Program-made: the position numbers and the translations under genes
Assembly: GCA_016867265.1 (NCBI GenBank)
Contig: VGJW01000006.1
Span: 62,001-126,000 of the forward strand
DNA length: 64,000 nt
Reading direction: 5' to 3'
Origin: Candidatus Tanganyikabacteria bacterium
Lineage (GTDB): Bacteria > Cyanobacteriota > Sericytochromatia > S15B-MN24 > VGJW01
Notes under the pieces: generated by a model
What the model was told of the DNA's origin: nothing
The model's database searches: none
The model's input: only the letters and a program-made list of their open reading frames with translations
Shown here: piece by piece, positions 48,351-62,446 of the stretch
Layout: the number at the start of each line of letters is the position of its first letter
How positions within the stretch are numbered: the stretch's first letter is position 1

Positions 48351-49277
48351 GTGAACTTTACCGAACTCGATACGGCCCTGCCGACAACCCCCGAGGGGGA
48401 ACCAGCCAGCATGCCGACCGTACCGTCCTTTGGTGGGGGCTGCGTGCCGACCGCCTTGGCTCCGGCACCGGCGTGCACGAGACCACCTTACGCGGTTCCC
48501 TTCGCCCCAGTGCTGCCTGCCGCAGAGGATGCTTGGGTCGGGCAAAGCCCCACCGCTTGGCAGCCCGCTGTCGGCACGGTTTTCGCCCCTGTCCCCTATG
48601 CCAACCTGCTTGCGCAACTCGACTCCCTCGTCAGCGGTCCGGTACCCACTCCTCCGGTCCTGGCGCCCCTGCCCGGTGCACCTGCGCCAACTCCTGCGCC
48701 GGCCCGCCCCCAGCCGGGCCCACCGCCGCGCGCGACACCGGGTGGGCTACCGGCCGATCCCGCCAGCTGGTTCATCTCGCAGAACGCCGGAGCATACAAC
48801 ACGCGTGAGGACGCTCCCGGCAACGGCAATTGCGGGCCGACGAGCCTGACGATGATTGCCCGGGCGTTCGGCAAGGTCCACGTCACGCCGGAGTCTGCGA
48901 ACGCCGCCATCGAAGAGACGCGGCGCCGGATGGGAGCCGGCAGTCGTCAGAGCGACGAGTTCAAGGGCACCAGCTTCAAGCAGTTGGAGAAGGGTGCCGC
49001 CAGCTTCGGCCTGAATACGCACGTCGTCTGGGGAGGCATCGACAAGGTTCGCGCCGAGTTGGCTCAGGGGCGGCTCGTCATCGCCCACGTCTGCGCGACC
49101 TACCTGCGTCCGGGGACCCGCACCGGCCACTATGCCGTGGTCTGGAAGGTCGAGGGGGACAAGGTCTATCTGAATGACCCCGCGAACCGCAAGGGCCCGA
49201 TGGTCATCACCGTGGCCCAGTTCCTCGCCGCACAGAAGGCCCGAGGAACCCAGGGGCTGGTCTCGATCGGCGCCTGA
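48351..49277 (+). CDS. C39-like (papain-fold) peptidase-like protein
   Basis: A 308-residue protein. Residues 1-135 are Pro/Ala-rich, look disordered and have no signal peptide. The C-terminal domain has Cys161 in 'GNGNCGPTSLTMIARAFG', His260 in 'TRTGHYAVVWKVEGDKVYL' and Asp276 in 'LNDPANR', the classical C39/C70-type layout. 'GGIDKVRAELAQGRLVIAHV' fits that domain. GTG at 48351 is used. An ATG at 48411 with GAGGGGG upstream is a good alternative. Target and export route are unknown. Confidence 0.75.
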   Translation: MNFTELDTALPTTPEGEPASMPTVPSFGGGCVPTALAPAPACTRPPYAVPFAPVLPAAEDAWVGQSPTAWQPAVGTVFAPVPYANLLAQLDSLVSGPVPTPPVLAPLPGAPAPTPAPARPQPGPPPRATPGGLPADPASWFISQNAGAYNTREDAPGNGNCGPTSLTMIARAFGKVHVTPESANAAIEETRRRMGAGSRQSDEFKGTSFKQLEKGAASFGLNTHVVWGGIDKVRAELAQGRLVIAHVCATYLRPGTRTGHYAVVWKVEGDKVYLNDPANRKGPMVITVAQFLAAQKARGTQGLVSIGA

Positions 49278-49300: not shown

Positions 49301-51679
49301 ATGCAAGGCACGCTGCCCGTCGCCGAGCACCTCGAGGCCATTGCGGACGCCTTGCTGGCGCATCGCCGGCTGGTGCTTGTCGCTCCGCCGGGAACTGGCA
49401 AGTCGACACTGGTGCCGGCGCATCTCGCCGCCAGCGGACACAGGACTACCGTCCTGCAACCCCGGCGGGTGGCCGCGCGGATGCTGGCCGCCCACGTCGC
49501 CGCGGGCCGGCCACTGGGAGAATCCGTGGGCTACGCCGTTCGGCACGACCGCAAGGCAGGTCCCGGTACGCGCCTGCTCTACGCGACGGCGGGCGTATTC
49601 CTGCAGGAACTGCTGCAGGGCGACCGCCGCGCGTGGCCGGACATCTTGATCCTCGACGAGTGGCACGAGCGTACCGTCGAGAATGATCTGGTGGCGGCAT
49701 GGGCGGTAGCCCAACCGGATGGCCCGGCCTTGCTGGTCATGTCGGCAACCATGGATGCCGCGGCGGTAGCCGGGTGGCTGGGACAGGCGCCGGTCCTCGA
49801 GGTGGAGGGCATCTCCCATCCCGTCACCGTGCGCCATCAAGTCCCCTTGGCCCGGGAGTCGCTCGGGGATCAGGTCGCGCGTTGCCTGCGCGACCTTCGG
49901 TCGGAAGGTCTGGACGGGTCCGTGCTCGTGTTCCTGCCGGGCAAGGGTGAAATCGAGCGCGTTGCGGACACGGTGGGTGCGGTGGTGCGGGATGCCGGCC
50001 TGAAGCTGCTGCGTCTGCACGGCTCCATGAGCCTCGAGCAGCAGCAGGAGGCGCTCGAGATACCGGCACGGGAGCGTGCGGTAATCCTCGCGACCAATGT
50101 CGCGGAAACCTCGCTGACCATCCCGGGCGTCACCGTAGTCATCGACAGTGGCAAGGCGAGAAGAACCCTGCCGACGACACCCGGAAATCCCCCCGAATTG
50201 CGGCTTGCCTGGATCACCCGTGCCAACGCCATCCAACGGGCAGGCCGCGCCGGACGCCTGGCACCCGGTCGCTGCATCAGGCTCTGGGATCCGGGCTACA
50301 CGCAATCGATGGATGCCCATCCCCACCCGGGCATCCTCGTCGCCAATCCCCTGATGACCGTGCTGTCATCCGGCGTTCTGGGCGTCGGCACGGGGCTGCC
50401 CACGCCCCTGCCGCCTGATGTCGCCGCCGATGCGCACGACAGGCTGCGGCACCTCGGAGCCTTCGATTCAGCCGGGCAAGTGACGCATCTGGGCCGGCTT
50501 ATGGCACGGCTGCCCCTCGATCCCGAGGGGGCTGCCGTCGTCGCTGCAGCGACGGCCGAACGGGATCCTTGGACGTGGCTGATTGCCGCCTCGGCCGTCA
50601 TGCGGCTTGAACCCGGCCACCCGGGCGGGGATCTCGCCCAGGACGCGTGGGAACTGCTGCGCTCCCCCGGGAGATTCGGCGAGACCGCCAAGACCCTTCG
50701 GCAAGTGGCCAGGACCTCAGGGCTCGTCAGCGAAGCGGATCCACCGTGGATGACGGCCCTGATACCCGGTGAGGAGGCGAGGCGGTCACTGGCCATCGCG
50801 TGGATGTCGATACTCCCCGCAGCCCTCGCCTTCCGGGAGGACAAGGCCCACCGGGATGCCCGGGATGCCCGCGTCCACTTGCCTGAGGGCAGTCCACCGC
50901 TGGTGCTCGTGCTGCATCGCCAGCCCCTCGAAGGCCCCGGACAGCGGGTCACCCGATGCGATGCGTGGCTGGAAGCGAGGGACGGCTGGTGGCCGGAGGC
51001 GCTGAGGACCGAAGTCACCACGCGCTGGGACGATCGCCAAGGCCGCGTCTTGCAGGAGCGCACCGTCAGCCTGACCGGACTTGTCCTGCGTCGCGAACCC
51101 CTGCCGCCTGCGGACTGGCAGCCCGAAGCCGTGCAGGCCACGCTGGCCGAGGCGATCCAGACCCGTGGCCTGCGCTTGCCCGCGCTCGATGACGAGGATC
51201 TCCAGCAGTGGATGCGACGCATCCGGATTGCCGCCCGCCTCTTTCCCGACGAAGGCTGGCCCGATCTGCAAGCCGACTGGCCCCTGATCCTGCATGAGGC
51301 CTGTGCAGGGCTGCGCAGGCCCGAAGACCTTTCGGCGGGCGCGCTTCGCCGCGTCATCGACGAGCTGCTCGGGCCCTGGCTGGTGCAGCGCCTGCAGCGC
51401 ATTGCCCCGTCACGCTGGCCCCTGCCCCAGGGCCGTCACGGACGCATCACCGTGGATGACGAGGGACAGGCCGAGCTTTCGGCAAGGCTCGGGGATCTCA
51501 TCGGGCTGACGGGTCCCCAGCAGCTCTACGAGGGACGCATCGCGCTCCGGTTCGACATCCTCGCCCCGAACATGAGGACCGTCCAGAAGACGGATGATCT
51601 CGACCGCTTCTGGCATACGGCCTATCCCGAAATCAAGCGGGAACTGAAGCGCCGCTATCCCCGTCATCCCTGGCCTTGA
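49301..51679 (+). CDS. hrpB: ATP-dependent helicase HrpB
   Basis: A 792-residue DEAH-type helicase. Motif I is 'APPGTGKSTLVP', II is 'DEWHER' (DEFHER in most family members), III is 'SATMD', and later 'TNVAETSLTIPGV' and 'QRAGRAGRLAPGRC'. The C-terminal HrpB-specific domain ends with 'ITVDDEGQAELSARLGDLI', then 'RFWHTAYPEIKRELKRRYPRHPWP', the diagnostic HrpB tail. The ATG at 49301 begins 'MQGTLPVAEHLEAIADALL'. Its cellular role is poorly known, with mRNA processing reported for some members. It precedes the envelope operon by 57 bases. Confidence 0.95.
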   Translation: MQGTLPVAEHLEAIADALLAHRRLVLVAPPGTGKSTLVPAHLAASGHRTTVLQPRRVAARMLAAHVAAGRPLGESVGYAVRHDRKAGPGTRLLYATAGVFLQELLQGDRRAWPDILILDEWHERTVENDLVAAWAVAQPDGPALLVMSATMDAAAVAGWLGQAPVLEVEGISHPVTVRHQVPLARESLGDQVARCLRDLRSEGLDGSVLVFLPGKGEIERVADTVGAVVRDAGLKLLRLHGSMSLEQQQEALEIPARERAVILATNVAETSLTIPGVTVVIDSGKARRTLPTTPGNPPELRLAWITRANAIQRAGRAGRLAPGRCIRLWDPGYTQSMDAHPHPGILVANPLMTVLSSGVLGVGTGLPTPLPPDVAADAHDRLRHLGAFDSAGQVTHLGRLMARLPLDPEGAAVVAAATAERDPWTWLIAASAVMRLEPGHPGGDLAQDAWELLRSPGRFGETAKTLRQVARTSGLVSEADPPWMTALIPGEEARRSLAIAWMSILPAALAFREDKAHRDARDARVHLPEGSPPLVLVLHRQPLEGPGQRVTRCDAWLEARDGWWPEALRTEVTTRWDDRQGRVLQERTVSLTGLVLRREPLPPADWQPEAVQATLAEAIQTRGLRLPALDDEDLQQWMRRIRIAARLFPDEGWPDLQADWPLILHEACAGLRRPEDLSAGALRRVIDELLGPWLVQRLQRIAPSRWPLPQGRHGRITVDDEGQAELSARLGDLIGLTGPQQLYEGRIALRFDILAPNMRTVQKTDDLDRFWHTAYPEIKRELKRRYPRHPWP

Positions 51680-51736: not shown

Positions 51737-53068
51737 TTGACCCCGGTCGATTGGCTGCCCTGGCTCCGCATGCTGGCCCTCGGCCTTGTGGCGGCTGGCC
51801 TCGTCCGGGGCTGGCGGGGCGCGAGCGTGCGTCCGGCACCGCTACCTGCCCGAACGTGGATCGCAACCCTCGCCATCGCGCTGTTGCCTGTCCTGCTGGT
51901 ACCTGCGGGGCCCAAGATGGCCTTTGCCTTGGCTGGCTGGGGCGCGGGCAGCCTCGTCCTCGTGCTGGCCTTGTTGATTCCCGTGGCCTCGGATGCCGCC
52001 GCCCCCCGGGTGACGGCTCTGTTGTCAGCCCTTCCCGTCGCCCTCCTCGCACCTTGGGCCGGCCGGCCTGGACTTGAAACTGGCTACGTCTGGGCCGCCG
52101 CGGTCGTTCCCGCGGCAACGTTGGTCACGGCAACAGGCTCACCGGTCGCGGCGCGCCTGGGTCTCGCACTCGCGGCGACGGGGGGCGCGGCACACGTTCT
52201 GGGCCGTCTGGTCCCCGAGGGTCTCGGCTGGGCGTGGACCATGCTTGCGGTCGCCGTGACCGTCTGGCTGGTCGATCGCCTGCCGGACAGGGGCAAGCCT
52301 GCCGTCCTGCCCATCGCGCTCGCAGCGCTCACGGTTCCTGCCGGCCGGTGGCTGCTGGATTTGCCCCCGGCGGCGTGCTGGGCCACGAGCGCCGGAGCAC
52401 TGGCTGCGGCGCTCGCAGGGGCCACGACGACGGATACCACGCCAGTGGTCCGGCTTGGCCGGCTGCTGCTTGCCGGAGGGGCAATGCTCCTGCTCGTTCG
52501 CCAGGGCGGCACGCTGGCCCTTGCGATGGCCAGCGCGGGCTGGGTCGCGACAGGCGCCGAGACCACCGGCCTGCTCCTTGCCGGTGCCTGGTGGACACGG
52601 TTGATGGCGCAGGAGCACCTCGATCGTTCCTGGCTGGCCCGTGAGGGCGTGGATCTCACGCATCCCTACGCCTTGGCCGGCCTGCTGGCCGGAATCACGG
52701 CACTCTTGCTTCCTGCCACGTGCGTCGGGAACTCGGATACCGGTCCCAGAGCCCTCTTGCGTCCCCTGGCCGCGTGGTGCGTCGTGGTCGCCCTCGGGGG
52801 CGTGCTCGGCCTGGAATCGGCCGGTGCCGCGGTGATGGGCGTCATGGTGGCGGCGATGGTCCTTGGATCTGGCCTGGCCGGTCCAGTCCTCCCGAGGACG
52901 GTGGGGCTGTTGCTGGGCCTGGTCGCCGTGGCCTCGCTCTCCGGTCCGGCCATGGTCCTGCTGAGCGGGCTCGACCGGCCGTTGAGGCTGGCCGCCGCCA
53001 CGACGGCCACGGCCATGGCGGCGTGGGCTTGGCTGTTCTCCCCGGAGCAGGCGGATGCTGCAGCCTGA
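51737..53068 (+). CDS. Polytopic membrane protein, unknown, first of envelope operon
   Basis: A 443-residue protein that is almost entirely hydrophobic (about 12-14 helices, very Ala/Gly/Leu-rich). The start is TTG at 51737 with a strong GAGGAGG 8 bases upstream. Its 3' end overlaps the next gene by 14 bases. I see no signature of SEDS, MurJ, ABC or MFS proteins, so the family is unknown. Its place just before a penicillin-binding transpeptidase invites comparison with SEDS-PBP pairs, but no conserved SEDS residue can be pointed to. Confidence 0.7.
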   Translation: MTPVDWLPWLRMLALGLVAAGLVRGWRGASVRPAPLPARTWIATLAIALLPVLLVPAGPKMAFALAGWGAGSLVLVLALLIPVASDAAAPRVTALLSALPVALLAPWAGRPGLETGYVWAAAVVPAATLVTATGSPVAARLGLALAATGGAAHVLGRLVPEGLGWAWTMLAVAVTVWLVDRLPDRGKPAVLPIALAALTVPAGRWLLDLPPAACWATSAGALAAALAGATTTDTTPVVRLGRLLLAGGAMLLLVRQGGTLALAMASAGWVATGAETTGLLLAGAWWTRLMAQEHLDRSWLAREGVDLTHPYALAGLLAGITALLLPATCVGNSDTGPRALLRPLAAWCVVVALGGVLGLESAGAAVMGVMVAAMVLGSGLAGPVLPRTVGLLLGLVAVASLSGPAMVLLSGLDRPLRLAAATTATAMAAWAWLFSPEQADAAA

Positions 53069-53852
53069 CAGCCCGGCACCGGCGCATGTGACACGCGCCG
53101 CAGAGGCAGCTCTCGAGGGGCGCATCGGCTGCGTGGTCCTGCGCGCACGCGACAACGGCCGAATGCTCATCGTGGCAGGCAGGCAACATGCCCTGGCCGC
53201 ACATCCGCTGGGATCGCTTGCGAAGATACCGGCCACCTTGGCACTGCCCGGTACGCCCGGACCGCTCACTTGGACGTGCGCCGGCCCCGAGGGGCAGCCA
53301 CCCTGCTGGACCCGGCACGGCCGTGTCGACACGGCCCGCATGCTGGCGCATTCCTGCAGCACGGCCGCCGCGCTGCTGGGGGAATCGGTCGGCCGTGCGG
53401 GCCTGCTGGCAAGCCTCGAGCAGTCAGGGTTCGGCCAACCGACGGGCGCAGGTCTGGGACCGGAGGCTGCCGGCGCGGTTCCCGAGGATGCCCCGCCAGG
53501 GAAGCTGGCGTCCGGCCGGGCCTGGGACCTGTCGGCCACCCCGCTGCAGGTGGCCCGGATGATGCAACGCTTGGCCGATGCCGAGGGCCGGACCCGTCGT
53601 GAGCCCATGGTCACGGTGCTGCGGGGCCTGAGGCTGGGCGTGCGGGAAGGAACGGCGGCCCATCTCGACGAGCTGGGCTACACGGCCGGAAAAACAGGAA
53701 CGGCTCCATCCCCGTCGGGTGGACGCGACGGCTGGTTTGCCGGTTGGACAAAGCGCTGGGTCGTGGTCGCGTGGGTCAGGGAAGGAACGGGATACGGGGC
53801 CGCCCGGGACGTCGCCAAGCGTCTGGCCCGAAAGCTGGGAGCAGGGTCATGA
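53055..53852 (+). CDS. Minimal penicillin-binding transpeptidase
   Basis: A 265-residue protein that is only a transpeptidase domain. The catalytic motifs are S54-x-x-K57 ('GSLAKIP'), S100-C-S102 in the place of SxN, and K213-T-G ('AGKTGTAP'). 'DGWFAGWTKRWVVVAWVREG' is the strand following KTG in PBPs. There is no signal peptide, membrane anchor or PASTA domain, which is unusual for a PBP. The SxS variant could alter beta-lactam sensitivity. The ATG at 53055 has GGAG upstream. It overlaps the SpoIID gene as ATGA. Confidence 0.75.
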   Translation: MLQPDSPAPAHVTRAAEAALEGRIGCVVLRARDNGRMLIVAGRQHALAAHPLGSLAKIPATLALPGTPGPLTWTCAGPEGQPPCWTRHGRVDTARMLAHSCSTAAALLGESVGRAGLLASLEQSGFGQPTGAGLGPEAAGAVPEDAPPGKLASGRAWDLSATPLQVARMMQRLADAEGRTRREPMVTVLRGLRLGVREGTAAHLDELGYTAGKTGTAPSPSGGRDGWFAGWTKRWVVVAWVREGTGYGAARDVAKRLARKLGAGS

Positions 53853-55186
53853 TGGCCGATCTGCCCCCGTTGCCTGCCGTCATCCGGTTGTCCCGGGGGC
53901 AAGGCGTGACGCGTTTGCCGCTTGAGGCATGGGTTTCCGGCGTCGTTGCCGCCGAGACTCCTGCAGGAAGTCCGCAGGCCGGACGCGAAGCCCAGGCCGT
54001 GCTCGCCCGGACCCTCGCCTGGCGTGGGGGGGACCACCCCGAAGGCAGCCTTTGCGGGACCACGCACTGCATGGCGTGGACGGCGGCAAGCGACCCCGGC
54101 GCGCGTGCTGCGGCCGAACGCACGCGGGGTTGGGTGCTCGCGGCAGGGAACAAGGTTGCCTTCCCCGCCTGCCACGCCTCGTGCGGGGGACATACGGCAG
54201 GATGGCCGGCCGGATTCGCCGGGGTGTCCGACCCCGCCTGCCTGCATGACCGTTGGGTGCGCTTCTGGCCCCGGACATGGCTGGATGAAGTCCTGCCCGG
54301 ACCGGCCACCCTGAGGGTCCTGCACACGCCGGACGGCCGTGTCTACCAGATGCGACGGGGTGCGGCGTGGCGAGACGGGGAGGTCTTCGGGGTGCTGGTC
54401 GGCCGTCGACACGGTTGGCACGCCGTGCCATCGACGGCCTTCGAGGTCCGCCCCCGGGCGGACGGCTGGCTGGCCACGGGCAGCGGCAGAGGCCATGGCA
54501 AAGGCATGTGCCAGCGGGGAGCCGAGCGACTCGCCCGCCAGGGGCGCTCATGGCAGGAGATCCTGCGGCACTACATGCCTTGGGCGCGCCCCGTACGGAC
54601 GGCCGTGGCCCTCGCTGCCGCGGGTTGGCTCGGTTGTTCCGTGTCGCCAGCTGTGGCCCAGCCCATGCCGGAGAAGTTGGCCGTGTCGATCACGACCTAT
54701 GCCCGAGCCGTCGCCCTGGGGCACTTCCTGGGGAACAGGCCGGCGGTGCCGGCGGACCTGGCACACCTGCCGCCCGGGGGCGTCTTCGTCACGTGGAGCA
54801 AGGCTGGCAGGACCCGCGCCTGCTGGGGGCGCCTCGAAGCGGACCAACCCGGCCTCGCAGCCCAGATTGCACAGGAAGCCGTCCGCTCCCTCGACCACGA
54901 TCCCCGGACTCCTCCCTTGTCCAGCCTTGAGGTGCGCGCCCTCGACCTGCTGGTCTCCCTGCCCGATCGCCCGAGGCCGCTCCCTCGGCTCTCTTGGCTG
55001 ATGCCCACCCGACAGGGCCTGTTGCTTGAGGCTGCGGGCCGCAAGGTGCTTGTCCTGCCCGGCGAGGCTGCATCACCTTCGGGCATGCTGCTGCGCTGCC
55101 GTGACAAGGCAGGGATCAGTCGACGGGTACCGGCGCGGTTGTGGTCCTTCACGACCCGGACGGCCTGGTCAGGGGGCAGGGGATGA
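53849..55186 (+). CDS. SpoIID domain fused to AMMECR1-like domain
   Basis: A 445-residue protein. Residues 10-245 are SpoIID/LytB, a lytic transglycosylase that cuts peptidoglycan glycan strands: catalytic Glu36 in 'GVVAAETPAG', 'ACHASCGGHTAG' (107-118), 'GSGRGHGKGMCQRGAERLA' (211-229) and 'WQEILRHYMP'. Residues 249-272 look like a lipoprotein signal or helix ('AVALAAAGWLGCSV'). Residues 275-425 match AMMECR1: 'GGVFVTWSKAGRTRACWG', 'DPRTPPLSSLE', 'LLLEAAGRKVLVLPGEA' and 'CRDKAGI'. The order SpoIID, helix, AMMECR1 is a rare fusion. No N-terminal signal is seen. It overlaps both neighbours by ATGA. Confidence 0.78.
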   Translation: MMADLPPLPAVIRLSRGQGVTRLPLEAWVSGVVAAETPAGSPQAGREAQAVLARTLAWRGGDHPEGSLCGTTHCMAWTAASDPGARAAAERTRGWVLAAGNKVAFPACHASCGGHTAGWPAGFAGVSDPACLHDRWVRFWPRTWLDEVLPGPATLRVLHTPDGRVYQMRRGAAWRDGEVFGVLVGRRHGWHAVPSTAFEVRPRADGWLATGSGRGHGKGMCQRGAERLARQGRSWQEILRHYMPWARPVRTAVALAAAGWLGCSVSPAVAQPMPEKLAVSITTYARAVALGHFLGNRPAVPADLAHLPPGGVFVTWSKAGRTRACWGRLEADQPGLAAQIAQEAVRSLDHDPRTPPLSSLEVRALDLLVSLPDRPRPLPRLSWLMPTRQGLLLEAAGRKVLVLPGEAASPSGMLLRCRDKAGISRRVPARLWSFTTRTAWSGGRG

Positions 55187-58100
55187 CGACCCGAGCGTGG
55201 GCCGCCTGCTGCCTGATGCTGCTGATGCTGGCCGCCATCATCTTTTCCGAGCGACCGGTAGGCCCCTTCGTTGCGCGCGTCCTCGATGACCATGGACATC
55301 CTCTCGCGGGTGCCACCGTCACCCTCGAGGGGCCGGTGCGCCGCGTGCTCAGGACGGGCGACGATGGCCGATGCCGTGGGGAAAGGCTGCCCGTCGGCAG
55401 CTATGACATCCACGTGGGCGGACGAGGTCGGGTGGGGCGCTGGGTATCCCCGCCGGCCGTCATCAGCGAGGACGGGACCTTCGTGCTGCCCGACGTCGCC
55501 CTCGAGCCGCGAGCGCCGGAGGTGGCCCTTGCCACGCCCCAGCAGGTCTTCGCGGCCGAGCACCCCGTCCTGCTCGCCGCGCGGGCCGTGGCCGTCTCGC
55601 GGCTCGACTTCGCCTTGAACCGCCTCGAAGGCAGCCGGCGCGTCCCCTTGGGCCAGTGGAGCCGACCCTTCGTCGAGCAGGCCGGGGATGCGGACGGCTG
55701 GGGCATCCGTTCCGTCAGGATTCCCGGGCTGCTGCCGTCCGGACGCTATGTCCTGACCCTGACGGCTCAAGCCTTGCCCGGCATGGCCCCTCCGCCGCGC
55801 CCCCTCGAAGATCGGCACGCCTTCATCGTCACCCGCCTCGCGTTGGTGGCCAAGCGTGACACCCATCAGTTGCTCGTGATGGCCACCGACATGGTCACGG
55901 GCCAACCCATGGCAGGCATCCAACTGCGTGCCGGCCCCGTGCGCGACGGTACCGGGCGCAGACGACCGGAAGCCCCCTTGAACCTCGGCGTGACGAATGC
56001 GGCAGGGCTGTGGCGCGGCCCGGTCCGGGGAACCGGCACCTTGGTCGTCACAGGCGGACTCGCTAACGAGCAGGCCGAGGCGATCGTCCCGGCCGCTTAT
56101 GCCGAACCTGGCCAGCTGCGGGCCCTGACGTGGACCGATCGTCCTCTGTACCGACCTGGGCACGAGATTCACTGGAAGACCACGATCAGGGCACAAGCCG
56201 AACCCGACCGTCGCCACTGGGCGGTACCGGGCGGTCTTTCCCTGGTAGCGGCGCTCGAGTCACCTTCCGGCAGGAAGGTCGAGGTCAACCCTGTAACCCT
56301 CGATGACTGGGGGGCTGCCGATGGCACGCTGCGCCTGCCTGCCGAGGCCGAGCCCGGATACTGGCAGGTCCGTCTCGTTCGCCCCGAGCGCCCGGACGAG
56401 ACCGTGGACAGCCAGATGGTGCGCGTCGCCGCCTACAGGAAGCCCGAGGCGCGGGTGGTCCTGACCCCGCCCGCAGCCCGTCAGGTCGGCCCCGGCCCCC
56501 TGGTCATGCAGTTGGAAGCCCGGGATATGACGGGGGGACTGCTGGCCGATGTGCCCTTTGCGTGGCGGGCCTGGAGCCAAGGCAAGGAGCCGCCTGTTGC
56601 GGACGACATGCCTGCTTGGTTTCAGGGCCTGAGTTCGGGCTGGGATCAGGGGATGTCCCGGGGCATGCTGCGGGGCGAGGGAGAGGGCCGGACGGATGAG
56701 GCGGGCAGGGCCATGCTCCGCCTGCCTGCGGACGGCCCCTTCGAAGACGAGACGTGGACCTTCGAGGCGGAGATCGTCGACCCCAGCAGGATGACGGCCA
56801 AGGGCACGGGCCACGTCGATCGGGTGCAAGGCGATGTCGCCATCGCCGTCCGGACGCCAGGCGTCCTCCGCGTGGGTCAGCCCTGGGCCGTGGACGTGGA
56901 CCTGCTGTCGTGGGACAAGGCCGACACGGGGCAGGCGCGCGACGGGGAATTGGTCGTCGAGCGCGTGACCTGGGTGCGGCGCGGCACGGAGACGCGCGAG
57001 GTACGAAGCGTCGTCCAGAGCCTGCCCTTGTCCCTACAAGGCAGGACCGGCCTGCATCTTGATCTGCAGCCCCAGGAGCAGCCGGGTGATCTCGAGGTCC
57101 GGGTGACCCTGCGGGACGCGGCCGGTCGGACGATCCGGGCCTCGGGGTGGGCGTGGAGCGTGGGGGGGGACGCCCTTGGGAACACCCGTGCGGCTGACGG
57201 GCCCATCGAGGTTCGGCTGCGGGATCGGATGGTCCTGCCCGGGGCGACGACCTCGGTGCTGATTCGCCTGCCGGATGCCCGCCTCACGCCTCTCGTGACG
57301 GTCGAAGGCAGGGACATCCATGAGGTCCGCCGGCTGCCCGCAGGTCGTCTCGAGCACGAAGTCATCCTGGAAGCCCGGCCGGAATGGGCACCGGATGTTG
57401 CCGTCAAGGTCACGGGGGTCCTCGGGACGGTCGGCCGCGAGGACATGGCCTTTCTGAACCTGATGCCGCAAGGTGCGGGCCTCCGCCTTGACGTGATGCC
57501 GACGCGTGAGGATGTCCTGCCGGGTGCAGATGCCGAGGTCAGCGTCCGCTGCACGGATGAAGCGGGGAAGCCGACGATGGCCGACGTGGCCCTCGCCGTC
57601 GTGGACGAGGCCGTGCTCGACCTCGAGCCGGACAAGACGCCCGACCCGCGGCCGGTCTTCTTCGGCCCCCGCTGGGATGCGGTCCAGACCGCCCTCTCCT
57701 TTGCGGAGTCCTTCACGGCTGGCCCCCCCAAGGAGCTGTTGCCTCCGGAGACCCGCAGCCGCTTCGAGGATACGGCTGCCTGGTTGCCCAAGGTCCGCAC
57801 CGACGCCAACGGTCAGGCACGGGTCCGGTTCAGGATGCCGGAGGACCTGACGACGTGGCGGTTGACGGCGCTGGGCATGACGCGTGCGGCCGCCGGCGGC
57901 GTCGGCCGCGCCCGAGTCCGGACACTGAAACCCCTCGTGGCCCGCCTTGGCCTGCCGGCGTTCCTTGTCTCGGGTGACAAGATCGAGGTGCTTGGCAGCC
58001 TGTTCGAAACGCGTGGCCAGCCGGGCACGGTGACGCCCTGGTGGCAGGGCAATGGCCTCCGGGTCTCGGGAGGCGCAAGATTGCCCCTTGCGCTGAGAGA

Positions 58101-59790
58101 GGGTAAGCCCGCGCTCGTGCCTCTGGCCCTCGAAGCCACCGCATCCGGTCCCGCCGAGGTGGCCTTCGGGGGGCGGGGTAATGGTCTCGCGGATGGCCTG
58201 CGCAGGCCGTTGCCCGTCCTCGACGCACTCCCGATCGCGATGCGCGTGCAGAAGACCCGACTGGCCCCGGACAAGCCGTGGCAGTGGCACCCGACTACAC
58301 CTGGCGAGCGCCTCGAAGCCATTGCCGTCGGCATGCCGCAGACGAGGCCGTGGCTGAATCTTGCCGCGACGGCACTGGCGAGGGAACCTTATGCGTGTGG
58401 CGAGCAACTCTCGGGGGCCCTCTACGGGCGCCTGCTGACAGGCGACAAGAACGGTGCACGGGACCTGCTGGCGTTGCTGACCGCGCGTCAGCACCCGGAC
58501 GGTGGTTGGGGCTGGTTCCCTGATGATGAGAGCGATCCCGAAGTCACGGCTCTGGTTCTGGGCGCGATGGCCGACGCCCAGGCCTCGGGCTTGCCCGTCG
58601 ACGGGGCAGTCGTTCGGACGGGCTGCAACTGGCTTGCGACATCAGGGCGCGGCCAAGGACCGCTCTGGCAGGTTCGAGGCCGACTGGTCCGGGGCGCGGG
58701 TCCGGACGGACGGGCCCTCGTCGCGGCAACGCTCGGACGCTGGGGGCTAACCCTCCCCGGATGGCGCCCCGGAGAGCCAGGCCTCTCGGCCGAGGGCCGG
58801 GCACGGACGCTGCTGGCGCTGCCTGCCGGTGGACGGAGCGCGCAGGTCTTGCTGGGCGAACTTGCACGAGGCGTCCAGCGGACGGGAGACCAGGCTTGGT
58901 GGAGAAGCGGGATGGTCGAGGGACTCGGTGCCTCGCTGCCCGTCGTGACCACGGCCAGAGTGCTGCAGGCGCTGCGGCGTCATGCTCCCGACCATCCTCT
59001 GGTGGAGGCGGCCCGGTATGCCCTGTGGTCCGAGGCGGCGGCCAGCGAACGACCGGGCTGGCCGACCACGCTCGAGACAGCCGAAGCCTTGCGGGCCTTG
59101 CAGGACGCGTCCCCCGAAGAAGAGGAAGCGCCAGCCAGCATCGGCCTCCGTCGCGACGGTGACCGAGTAGGCGTGACACCCACCATGCTGACCTCGTCCC
59201 GCTTCACACCCGTTGAAGCGCCGCCCGGCCGCGGCGTCACGCTGATCGCCAGCGGATCCAGGCCTGTCCTCGCAAGGCTGCGCATCGCCAGCATCGCCGC
59301 CGGGGGCTACCGCCAGACCGATGCACCTCGCCTGTCCCGTCGCGTCGTCGCCGTGCCCGAGCAACTGGTCAAGGCGCTCTTCGGAGGCATCACCGGACAC
59401 CTATATGATGCGCCCGAGGCCCGCCCGGACCACGACGCGTGGGGCCGGCTGGCGGCAGCGGAGCGCATCCGGCTGCGGGTACCCATGGCTTCCGAGGTGA
59501 CGGTGGAAACCGGCCACGACCTGCGCCACGTGGTCCTCGAGGAACCCTTGCCGAGCGGGGCCGAGGTCTGGCACGAAGCCGATGGCTCCGTCTGGTCCGG
59601 CACTCAGATCCTGGACGATCGGGTCGTCGTCATGATTCAGGACTTGCCGGCAGGAAGGCATGTCTTCCGATTCTACTGGCGCGCTCTGCTGCCGGGACGT
59701 CTGGTTCATCGGGGCAGCAGCATCCGCCCCTTCTATGCACGGGGCGGCGCTGCCTCCCTGGGGCCGGAGACGCGCGAGGTCGTGCCATGA
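55183..59790 (+). CDS. Bacterial alpha-2-macroglobulin with thioester
   Basis: A 1535-residue envelope protein that traps proteases. The N-terminal signal anchor ('CCLMLLMLAAIIFSE') is followed by a carboxypeptidase-regulatory-like domain ('GHPLAGATVTLEGPVRRV'), then MG domains ('LTWTDRPLYRPGHEIHWK'), a bait-region-like stretch and the alpha-2-macroglobulin domain. The thioester motif CGEQ is intact (C1072 to Q1075 in 'EPYACGEQLSGALYG'), so it belongs to the thioester-bearing class. In many bacteria this protein pairs with PBP1C. Here the partner genes are a minimal PBP and SpoIID. The ATG at 55183 overlaps as ATGA, and the 14-codon longer frame is not needed. Confidence 0.92.
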   Translation: MTTRAWAACCLMLLMLAAIIFSERPVGPFVARVLDDHGHPLAGATVTLEGPVRRVLRTGDDGRCRGERLPVGSYDIHVGGRGRVGRWVSPPAVISEDGTFVLPDVALEPRAPEVALATPQQVFAAEHPVLLAARAVAVSRLDFALNRLEGSRRVPLGQWSRPFVEQAGDADGWGIRSVRIPGLLPSGRYVLTLTAQALPGMAPPPRPLEDRHAFIVTRLALVAKRDTHQLLVMATDMVTGQPMAGIQLRAGPVRDGTGRRRPEAPLNLGVTNAAGLWRGPVRGTGTLVVTGGLANEQAEAIVPAAYAEPGQLRALTWTDRPLYRPGHEIHWKTTIRAQAEPDRRHWAVPGGLSLVAALESPSGRKVEVNPVTLDDWGAADGTLRLPAEAEPGYWQVRLVRPERPDETVDSQMVRVAAYRKPEARVVLTPPAARQVGPGPLVMQLEARDMTGGLLADVPFAWRAWSQGKEPPVADDMPAWFQGLSSGWDQGMSRGMLRGEGEGRTDEAGRAMLRLPADGPFEDETWTFEAEIVDPSRMTAKGTGHVDRVQGDVAIAVRTPGVLRVGQPWAVDVDLLSWDKADTGQARDGELVVERVTWVRRGTETREVRSVVQSLPLSLQGRTGLHLDLQPQEQPGDLEVRVTLRDAAGRTIRASGWAWSVGGDALGNTRAADGPIEVRLRDRMVLPGATTSVLIRLPDARLTPLVTVEGRDIHEVRRLPAGRLEHEVILEARPEWAPDVAVKVTGVLGTVGREDMAFLNLMPQGAGLRLDVMPTREDVLPGADAEVSVRCTDEAGKPTMADVALAVVDEAVLDLEPDKTPDPRPVFFGPRWDAVQTALSFAESFTAGPPKELLPPETRSRFEDTAAWLPKVRTDANGQARVRFRMPEDLTTWRLTALGMTRAAAGGVGRARVRTLKPLVARLGLPAFLVSGDKIEVLGSLFETRGQPGTVTPWWQGNGLRVSGGARLPLALREGKPALVPLALEATASGPAEVAFGGRGNGLADGLRRPLPVLDALPIAMRVQKTRLAPDKPWQWHPTTPGERLEAIAVGMPQTRPWLNLAATALAREPYACGEQLSGALYGRLLTGDKNGARDLLALLTARQHPDGGWGWFPDDESDPEVTALVLGAMADAQASGLPVDGAVVRTGCNWLATSGRGQGPLWQVRGRLVRGAGPDGRALVAATLGRWGLTLPGWRPGEPGLSAEGRARTLLALPAGGRSAQVLLGELARGVQRTGDQAWWRSGMVEGLGASLPVVTTARVLQALRRHAPDHPLVEAARYALWSEAAASERPGWPTTLETAEALRALQDASPEEEEAPASIGLRRDGDRVGVTPTMLTSSRFTPVEAPPGRGVTLIASGSRPVLARLRIASIAAGGYRQTDAPRLSRRVVAVPEQLVKALFGGITGHLYDAPEARPDHDAWGRLAAAERIRLRVPMASEVTVETGHDLRHVVLEEPLPSGAEVWHEADGSVWSGTQILDDRVVVMIQDLPAGRHVFRFYWRALLPGRLVHRGSSIRPFYARGGAASLGPETREVVP

Positions 59791-60458
59791 CCCATCACCT
59801 GGTGCCATCGGCTTCGTGGTGGGCAATCGCGCTCGCGGTCGGTCTGGGCTCGTGGGTCCTGCGTCCCTACCCGGATACGGTGGGTGAAGCCATGACGCCC
59901 ATCACGGACCGAGGCCCGGCGGAACGGGCCAACCTCGCGAGGGGCATTGCGTACCTGGCAGGTGCCACCATCGCACCGGACCGGCCTTGGTCACTCTCGA
60001 CATGCCTTGGCAGCAGGACCCGCGGGCACGGCTACATGCCGGCACCCTCGCGGCTGGGCGACGCGCGCGTCGCCACGCTCGGGGGGGGGCTTTGCCAGTT
60101 GGCATCCACCCTTCACCTCGCTGCCCTGCGGGCAGGCCTCGAGCCCCTGGCTCGCAAGGGTCATCGGCAACCCGCGGCCTCGATGCCGGCCGGCCTCGAC
60201 GTGGCGCTTTGGGATGGCGGCCAGGACTTGGTGCTGGCCAACCGCGGAAACAGGCCCATCCGCATCGAGGCACGGCTTTCGGAGCACGGCCTGAGCATCT
60301 CACTCAGGGGCTGGCACGACGGACGTGGTCATCAGTGGTCGTTGGCCACGCGGGACGATGGTCAGGGACTCAGGACATCAGGATTCCGCAGGACGTGGCT
60401 GCCCGATGACACCGTCGCCGGGACGTTGCGCTGGTCAGACGTCTACGATACCCGCTGA
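59787..60458 (+). CDS. VanW-like protein
   Basis: A 223-residue protein with an N-terminal hydrophobic anchor and the VanW domain signature 'TLGGGLCQLASTLHLAALRAG', shown here in part, followed by 'RKGHRQPAASMPAGLDVALW'. VanW proteins often occur near peptidoglycan or vancomycin-resistance genes, though their activity is unproven. The end contains no YkuD, PASTA or G5 domain. The ATG overlaps the alpha-2-macroglobulin stop as ATGA. It is the last gene of the operon, converging on 60466. Confidence 0.85.
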   Translation: MTHHLVPSASWWAIALAVGLGSWVLRPYPDTVGEAMTPITDRGPAERANLARGIAYLAGATIAPDRPWSLSTCLGSRTRGHGYMPAPSRLGDARVATLGGGLCQLASTLHLAALRAGLEPLARKGHRQPAASMPAGLDVALWDGGQDLVLANRGNRPIRIEARLSEHGLSISLRGWHDGRGHQWSLATRDDGQGLRTSGFRRTWLPDDTVAGTLRWSDVYDTR

Positions 60459-61684: not shown

Positions 61685-62446
61685 ATGATTGCCGTGCGTG
61701 ACTCAGTCGGTGGTGGAATGAGCTTGAAACCCGCCATTCCCAGACCTCTCCGGCCGGGCGACCTGTCTGATTCGCGACGAGCAGGTGGAGTGACTACTTC
61801 GCCCGGCGAGCCGGGGCGGGAGGGGTCTGCTCTAGACAATTTTAACAGGATGGACATCAACAAGGACGGGGTTCTGTCCGGCACCGAGTTGAAGGGCGTA
61901 AAACGCGGCGGGCTTAACGACCCCCGTTTTACCGACGGTAAGATTACCAAGGACGAATATTTGTCGTCGAATTCCCGGTCACGGCGGGCGGGTTCGCCTA
62001 CGGGTCCAGGCAGTGGACCGGTCCGGCATCCGGGTCTAGGGTCTGGACTGGCACTGGATCAGGGCAAACTGGGGGAGGTCTTTTTCAACCATCTTGACAA
62101 GAATGCGGACGGCGTCCTGTCCGGCAACGAGATCCGACCGCGGCACAAAGCCAAGGATGCCGATGGCGATGGCCAACTTACGCTGGACGAGTATAGGTCG
62201 CCGACGGCAGTTCCGGCGCTATTCCGCGTTCCGGATGAGGGCAAGGAGCGGTTGGATTTTAATTTGCTCGACAAAAATCAGGATGGCGTCCTGTCCGGCA
62301 ATGAGATCCGGCCGCGGGACAAAGCCAAAGATGCCGATGGCGATGGCCAACTTACGCTAGACGAGTTTAAGCTGGCGGCCCCTGCCTCGACGGGCGACCC
62401 GCCCCGCGTCGCCACGCTTGGGATAGGCCATCGGCGATTTGGATAA
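61685..62446 (+). CDS. Six-EF-hand protein
   Basis: A 253-residue acidic-loop protein. After a Pro/Arg-rich N-terminus without signal peptide, six calcium-binding EF-hand loops occur in three pairs: 'DINKDGVLSGTE', 'DPRFTDGKITKDE', 'DKNADGVLSGNE', 'DADGDGQLTLDE', 'DKNQDGVLSGNE' and 'DADGDGQLTLDE'. The last two pairs are near-identical at DNA level. The start is the ATG at 61685. GTG at 61694 is supported by a better-spaced AGAGG. It is divergent from 60466, with a 196-base intergenic space holding no clear operator. Confidence 0.88.
   Translation: MIAVRDSVGGGMSLKPAIPRPLRPGDLSDSRRAGGVTTSPGEPGREGSALDNFNRMDINKDGVLSGTELKGVKRGGLNDPRFTDGKITKDEYLSSNSRSRRAGSPTGPGSGPVRHPGLGSGLALDQGKLGEVFFNHLDKNADGVLSGNEIRPRHKAKDADGDGQLTLDEYRSPTAVPALFRVPDEGKERLDFNLLDKNQDGVLSGNEIRPRDKAKDADGDGQLTLDEFKLAAPASTGDPPRVATLGIGHRRFG
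62096..62367 (+). repeat. Near-identical 98-bp direct repeat inside the EF-hand gene
   Basis: Bases 62096-62193 and 62270-62367 differ at only a few positions and each encode one EF-hand pair, 174 bases apart, in frame. This shows a recent internal duplication that doubled a calcium-binding module. Few silent changes have accumulated. Confidence 0.85.

Follow-up and report, generated by a model that had tools for sequence, protein, structure and literature searches.

Among the described systems closest to the locus analysed here are the magABCDEF operon of Pseudomonas and yfaATSQP of E. coli, both built around an alpha-2-macroglobulin (A2M). The A2M MagD, which has no thioester, captures a protease and associates with other products of its operon (PMC5764988). 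MagE is not stably bound to MagD, the loss of magE alters MagD processing, and MagE has been regarded as a possible chaperone (PMC5764988). Comparing the order of the Pseudomonas loci with the published order, we identified MagE by position as a DUF2300 protein. In E. coli, the gene for the A2M YfaS, a pseudogene in MG1655, has that for YfaT (DUF1175, NlpC/P60-like) before it and that for YfaQ (DUF2300, matching SpoIID) after it. A second arrangement is the Type I pair yfhM-pbpC of E. coli, in which a thioester A2M stands by a D,D-transpeptidase domain with a presumed trap-and-repair logic. VanW proteins form a second family of L,D-transpeptidases (PMC12729407; PMC11986978). They work through a Cys-His-small residue triad, and the activity is absent from some members (PMC12729407).

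The operon described here lies in a 64,000-nucleotide stretch of DNA (the window) from a 2.85 Mb genome that is 98 percent complete. Photosystem II reaction-centre genes were absent from all 18 genomes of its class and present in many phylum-mates; the class is a non-photosynthetic branch of the Cyanobacteriota, probably Sericytochromatia. We found a real, conserved envelope operon that is a thioester-bearing relative of Mag/Yfa. The probability that it acts in envelope protection of the Mag/Yfa kind, still with the thioester and with separate wall enzymes, is put at roughly 0.5.

Layout and domain content of the operon

Five plus-strand ORFs extend from 51737 to 60458, as the initial annotation had described. 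Its description of tight coupling was confirmed as well: genes 1 and 2 share 14 nt, and each of the remaining three junctions is an ATGA overlap. Pfam bore out the assigned transpeptidase, SpoIID, AMMECR1, A2M and VanW domains, and the proposed envelope theme was supported. The features are as follows.

51737..53068, plus strand: gene 1, ORF for an unclassified membrane protein, 443 aa (TTG start, GAGGAGG upstream)
53055..53852, plus strand: gene 2, ORF for a stand-alone penicillin-binding transpeptidase (TPase) domain, 265 aa
53214..53225, plus strand: TPase SxxK motif, SLAK, residues 54-57 (ortholog alignment)
53352..53360, plus strand: TPase SCS replacing SxN, residues 100-102 (invariant in 4 orthologs)
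53691..53699, plus strand: TPase KTG motif, residues 213-215 (invariant in 4 orthologs)
53849..55186, plus strand: gene 3, ORF for a fused SpoIID - AMMECR1-like protein, 445 aa
53867-54622, plus strand: SpoIID part of gene 3 (family profiles)
53954..53956, plus strand: conserved SpoIID Glu36 (invariant in 6 orthologs)
54575..54661, plus strand: signal-peptide-like stretch MPWARPVRTAVALAAAGWLGCSVSPAVAQ inside the fusion, the sole hydrophobic stretch of the gene 3 protein
54635-55183, plus strand: AMMECR1-like part of gene 3 (family profiles)
55183..59790, plus strand: gene 4, ORF for the A2M, 1535 aa
58396..58407, plus strand: A2M thioester motif CGEQ, residues 1072-1075
59787..60458, plus strand: gene 5, ORF for the VanW protein, 223 aa
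60093..60095, plus strand: VanW Cys103, candidate catalytic Cys (invariant in 7 orthologs)
60162..60164, plus strand: VanW His126, candidate catalytic His (invariant in 7 orthologs)

An HrpB-type helicase gene on the same strand (window 49301-51679) stops 57 bases 5' of gene 1, so the operon transcript may start further upstream. A peptidase C39-like protein is encoded upstream of hrpB (48351-49277). A consensus scan revealed neither promoter-like sites in the operon region nor terminator-like sites between its genes, although the high GC content makes a scan of this kind weak evidence. The first gene 3' of the operon is convergent, and a protein encoded just past the operon (61685-62446) carries several EF-hand calcium-binding repeats.

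The gene 1 protein had no Pfam or NCBIfam match. Nine hydrophobic segments were predicted in it, against 13-16 in its orthologs, which are present in 9 of the 18 class genomes and share the pattern R..LQ.FL.R..L...GVD.T..Y, kept in part by the window protein. Profile comparison with SEDS glycosyltransferases and MurJ flippases was negative (0.1-0.2 percent); the same method did connect SEDS with O-antigen ligase (74 percent).

Gene 2 matched the Transpeptidase family (PF00905) at 6e-15, and its family profile matched PBP2/MrdA in the PDB at 9e-32; by profile similarity, the operon TPase is nearest to PBP2/MrdA. SLAK and KTG are present, while the SxN position reads SCS. The operon encodes neither a glycosyltransferase domain nor PBP1C. 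Its sole TPase is stand-alone and PBP2-like, in agreement with the absence of PBP1C already noted in the initial annotation.

Gene 3 matched SpoIID (PF08486, 9e-12; TIGR02669 above cut-off) and AMMECR1 (PF01871, 3e-18). We take Glu36 to be the catalytic Glu of the SpoIID domain, by analogy with B. subtilis SpoIID. Cys69 and Cys74, a presumed Zn site, are likewise invariant in six orthologs. SpoIID and the AMMECR1-like protein are two separate genes in all other genomes, so the SpoIID-AMMECR1 gene first described is real but peculiar to the window genome, and the operon normally has six genes. The AMMECR1-like orthologs begin with signal peptides, and MPWARPVRTAVALAAAGWLGCSVSPAVAQ may be the leftover signal of the once-separate gene. 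A relationship of the AMMECR1-like protein to DUF1175 was not supported by profile comparison.

The gene 4 protein contains MG2, A2M, A2M_BRD and bMG10 domains, a bait region and an N-terminal signal or anchor; the thioester reported as intact was indeed found, as CGEQ at residue 1072. The gene 5 protein matched VanW (PF04294, 8e-26) and has an N-terminal membrane anchor. With its conserved Cys and His, it is a candidate L,D-transpeptidase, and orthologs lie 3' of the A2M in all loci of the taxonomic order. The VanW-type LdtCd4 and LdtCd5 of C. difficile share the VanW domain, the conserved Cys and His and the membrane anchor. The window protein differs from them in lacking a PG4 domain by Pfam and in belonging to an A2M operon of non-photosynthetic Cyanobacteriota.

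Gene order in related genomes and divergence of the window copy

The six parts were located by family profiles; a first scan of the genome contigs with the window A2M sequence had found no relative. The order membrane protein, TPase, SpoIID, AMMECR1-like protein, A2M and VanW was found across the taxonomic order and in one family outside it. All six parts are contiguous in this order in genome G020. G039 has the same order with TetR and hydrolase genes inserted between SpoIID and the AMMECR1-like gene. The order also holds over two contigs in G013 and, outside the taxonomic order, in G050. In G004, from the same family as the window, TPase and SpoIID are encoded on different contigs, each close to a contig end; this is consistent with the same order, which the genome probably shares. 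The gene-order search suggested by the initial annotation thus showed that the order recurs beyond the window, and since it is conserved at ~25-37% identity in several genomes, the arrangement is more than chance. Class A PBPs, called at class level, are encoded elsewhere in the order-mate genomes, so the operon is no substitute for the main synthases.

The distribution is not uniform. In G042 and G025, the membrane protein-TPase-SpoIID and AMMECR1-A2M-VanW modules are both present and unlinked, and neither the A2M nor the membrane protein was found in G002 and G003, from the window's own family. In family f4 (L051 4792-7016, L053 4202-7349), genes for a Wzy_C O-antigen ligase and a glycosyltransferase 2 lie upstream of AMMECR1-A2M-VanW, joined in L053 by a lipid A acyltransferase gene. 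A further A2M encoded in G004, 2083 aa long and highly divergent, carries CTEQ (L066 5691-11942).

The window operon is diverging faster than MurJ and FtsW. Identity between the window and its order-mates, compared with identity among the order-mates, was 29 vs 40 percent for the A2M, 35 vs 44 for the TPase and 27 vs 36 for the membrane protein. There was no such gap in MurJ (44 vs 43) or FtsW (58 vs 59); a RodA-like protein, perhaps a paralog, also showed one (36 vs 54). Despite this divergence, the catalytic motifs of the window copy are kept. The window TPase and SpoIID both start at the mature domain. Neither has a signal peptide, nor the TPase a membrane anchor, and there is no room for one, whereas the TPase orthologs carry signal peptides.

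With these export signals missing, the window copy, which is the least typical of the family, may be altered or decaying; either it has become specialised or it is in decay. The window TPase and SpoIID could accordingly be read as decaying remnants, leaving only the A2M, the AMMECR1-like protein and VanW at work. Besides the lost signals and the faster divergence, this reading draws on the SpoIID itself, which is ~100 N-terminal residues short and fused to the next gene. However, the frames remain open over 265 and 445 codons, with both the catalytic motifs and the ATGA couplings preserved, and we regard decay as a minority explanation, though the strongest of those competing with envelope protection. 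Inactive remnants, a possibility raised at the outset, are a live prospect for the window genome but not for the family.

Kinship with Mag/Yfa through DUF2300 and the A2M tree

Single-sequence BLAST of the window proteins against YfaQ gave nothing, so profiles were needed. The alignment of the order TPase profile to DUF2300 spanned SxxK and the equivalent of SxN and scored 46.2; the highest scores otherwise seen were 25.9 among 200 column shuffles and 21.9 with other families. A second colinear block, individually weak, covered KTG and the following GWFAGW/GGFAGW. Comparison of the SpoIID and DUF2300 profiles gave 96 percent. GSxWK is kept in all 82 DUF2300 sequences. When a DUF2300 protein from Escherichia was examined as an AlphaFold model (pLDDT 81), Foldseek matched it with probability 1.00 to BlaR1 sensor domains, class D beta-lactamases and a PBP2. 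Profile alignment, shuffles and AlphaFold/Foldseek agree in identifying DUF2300 (YfaQ, MagE) as a predicted degenerate TPase fold plus SpoIID. The open-access papers searched yielded no match for DUF2300, and a plasmid search with YfaQ returned enterobacterial copies only.

At the C-terminus of DUF2300 proteins, HEYLHLAF is strictly conserved (HExxH; E. coli YfaQ, L068 8149-9798; L073-L152). This likely marks a metallopeptidase domain following the TPase fold and SpoIID, and it might explain the MagD processing defect of the magE mutant. Comparison of this end with the Deinococcus downstream protein described below gave no more than a hint of a relationship (score 25.6 with a null maximum of 20.3; probability 16 percent).

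The window operon has both DUF2300 folds as separate homologous genes, with no DUF2300 Pfam match and no HExxH, and with motifs more intact than in the fused MagE/YfaQ. Like Mag/Yfa, it is tight, its TPase fold and SpoIID adjoin an A2M probably of the Mag/YfaS clade, and a small exported protein lies directly 5' of the A2M, although this is AMMECR1-like where Mag/Yfa has DUF1175. Pfam found no DUF1175, DUF2138 or DUF2135 among the operon proteins, and VanW and the multi-helix membrane protein are extra. The pairing of TPase and SpoIID beside an A2M, initially thought to have no known counterpart, therefore does have one in degenerate form, and TPase-SpoIID-A2M is a shared theme.

In the A2M tree, the order A2Ms form one clade (97/97) and join Mag/YfaS and the G176 A2M at 87/99 (quick tree 95), a node with only 87 percent bootstrap. 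The Mag and window branches are long, so the exact sister relations are unsure. PBP1C-linked A2Ms split from the order and Mag A2Ms at 100/99, and the DUF1175-type A2Ms of Deinococcus fall on the same side as the latter. On this tree, the window A2M is outside the PBP1C-linked clade and probably groups with Mag/YfaS. Its position, together with the TPase-SpoIID makeup of DUF2300, argues against a replacement of PBP1C by a TPase and SpoIID, as had been proposed. Compared with yfhM-pbpC, the window operon shares a thioester A2M next to a D,D-transpeptidase domain, but the A2M is of another clade, the TPase is PBP2-like, no PBP1C or glycosyltransferase domain is present, and SpoIID and VanW are extra.

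C.EQ is kept by all A2Ms of the order and by those of Deinococcus, while five of six Mag/YfaS A2Ms, unlike the window A2M, have lost the thioester Cys. The exception is the Mag-type A2M of Pseudomonas turukhanskensis (L116 5204-9994), which retains CVEQ unlike its close relatives. The simplest explanation is that the thioester was lost later, within the Mag clade.

Plasmids of Deinococcus and Meiothermus (L070, L072, L155) carry three-gene operons of DUF1175, a thioester A2M and a small HExxH protein. These A2Ms lie on the same side of the tree as that of the window and, as there, a small exported protein precedes and a small protein follows the A2M. The flanking genes are of other families, with no adjacent TPase or SpoIID; profile comparison of the Deinococcus downstream gene with VanW was negative.

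The degeneration of DUF2300 bears on a further explanation, in which the wall-enzyme folds serve mainly to fix the A2M to the wall through binding of peptidoglycan or lipid-linked stem peptides, and catalyse neither crosslinking nor cutting. KTG has become KTWSW and SxN has become SCG in 82/82 DUF2300 sequences, and SCS also replaces SxN in the order. On the other hand, the order TPases keep SxxK and KTG, the SpoIID Glu and Cys are invariant, and VanW keeps its Cys and His. We consider such a scaffold a doubtful account of the operon, a little behind decay.

Proposed mechanism and meaning

Protease trapping coupled to wall repair appears to be the best mechanism for an envelope-protection operon of this kind. 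The A2M would sit on the inner membrane, facing the periplasm; an incoming protease would cut its bait region and be bound covalently by the CGEQ thioester. The PBP2-like TPase (D,D-crosslinks) and VanW (L,D-crosslinks) would then re-tie the wall around the A2M, while bare glycan would be trimmed by SpoIID. The machine may also include the multi-helix membrane protein and the AMMECR1-like protein, which would be exported. Secretion, trapping, enzyme activity, a physical complex and co-regulation are what we infer.

Several observations weigh against this mechanism. SCS stands for SxN in every TPase ortholog, and the window TPase and SpoIID have no signal peptides. The f4 modules are unlinked, the DUF1175, DUF2138 and DUF2135 partners are missing, and MagE is not stably bound to MagD. 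The operon diverges faster, and the 87 percent node unites long branches. With no export signal on two of its enzymes, the window copy itself only weakly illustrates the wall repair and protease defence first proposed for it. That the membrane protein-TPase-SpoIID and AMMECR1-A2M-VanW modules merely lie side by side, functionally unlinked, is improbable: they are apart in G042 and G025, with the O-antigen ligase and glycosyltransferase genes beside the A2M module, and separated by TetR and hydrolase genes in G039, but every complete order genome that carries this A2M has the two of them, G002 and G003 have neither, and TPase-SpoIID adjoins the A2M in Mag/Yfa operons too, as DUF2300.

Within the envelope-protection reading, we tentatively suggest that the operon preserves the ancestral Mag/Yfa state, a thioester A2M combined with a separate working D,D-transpeptidase, a glycan-cutting SpoIID and a VanW L,D-transpeptidase. 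The type II state would have arisen later, by TPase-SpoIID fusion and by loss of the TPase motifs and the thioester; VanW may attach the A2M, or a protease caught by it, to the wall through a covalent bond.

A thioester A2M need not go with PBP1C, and the type I/type II split, based on the thioester and PBP1C, therefore departs from the A2M tree. The locus also places a VanW protein, from a newly recognised L,D-transpeptidase family, in an A2M operon of non-photosynthetic Cyanobacteriota. DUF2300 (YfaQ, MagE) gains a concrete predicted identity behind an uninformative name, that of a penicillin-binding fold with a SpoIID domain, which opens the role of wall enzymes in bacterial A2M systems to tests in common laboratory strains.
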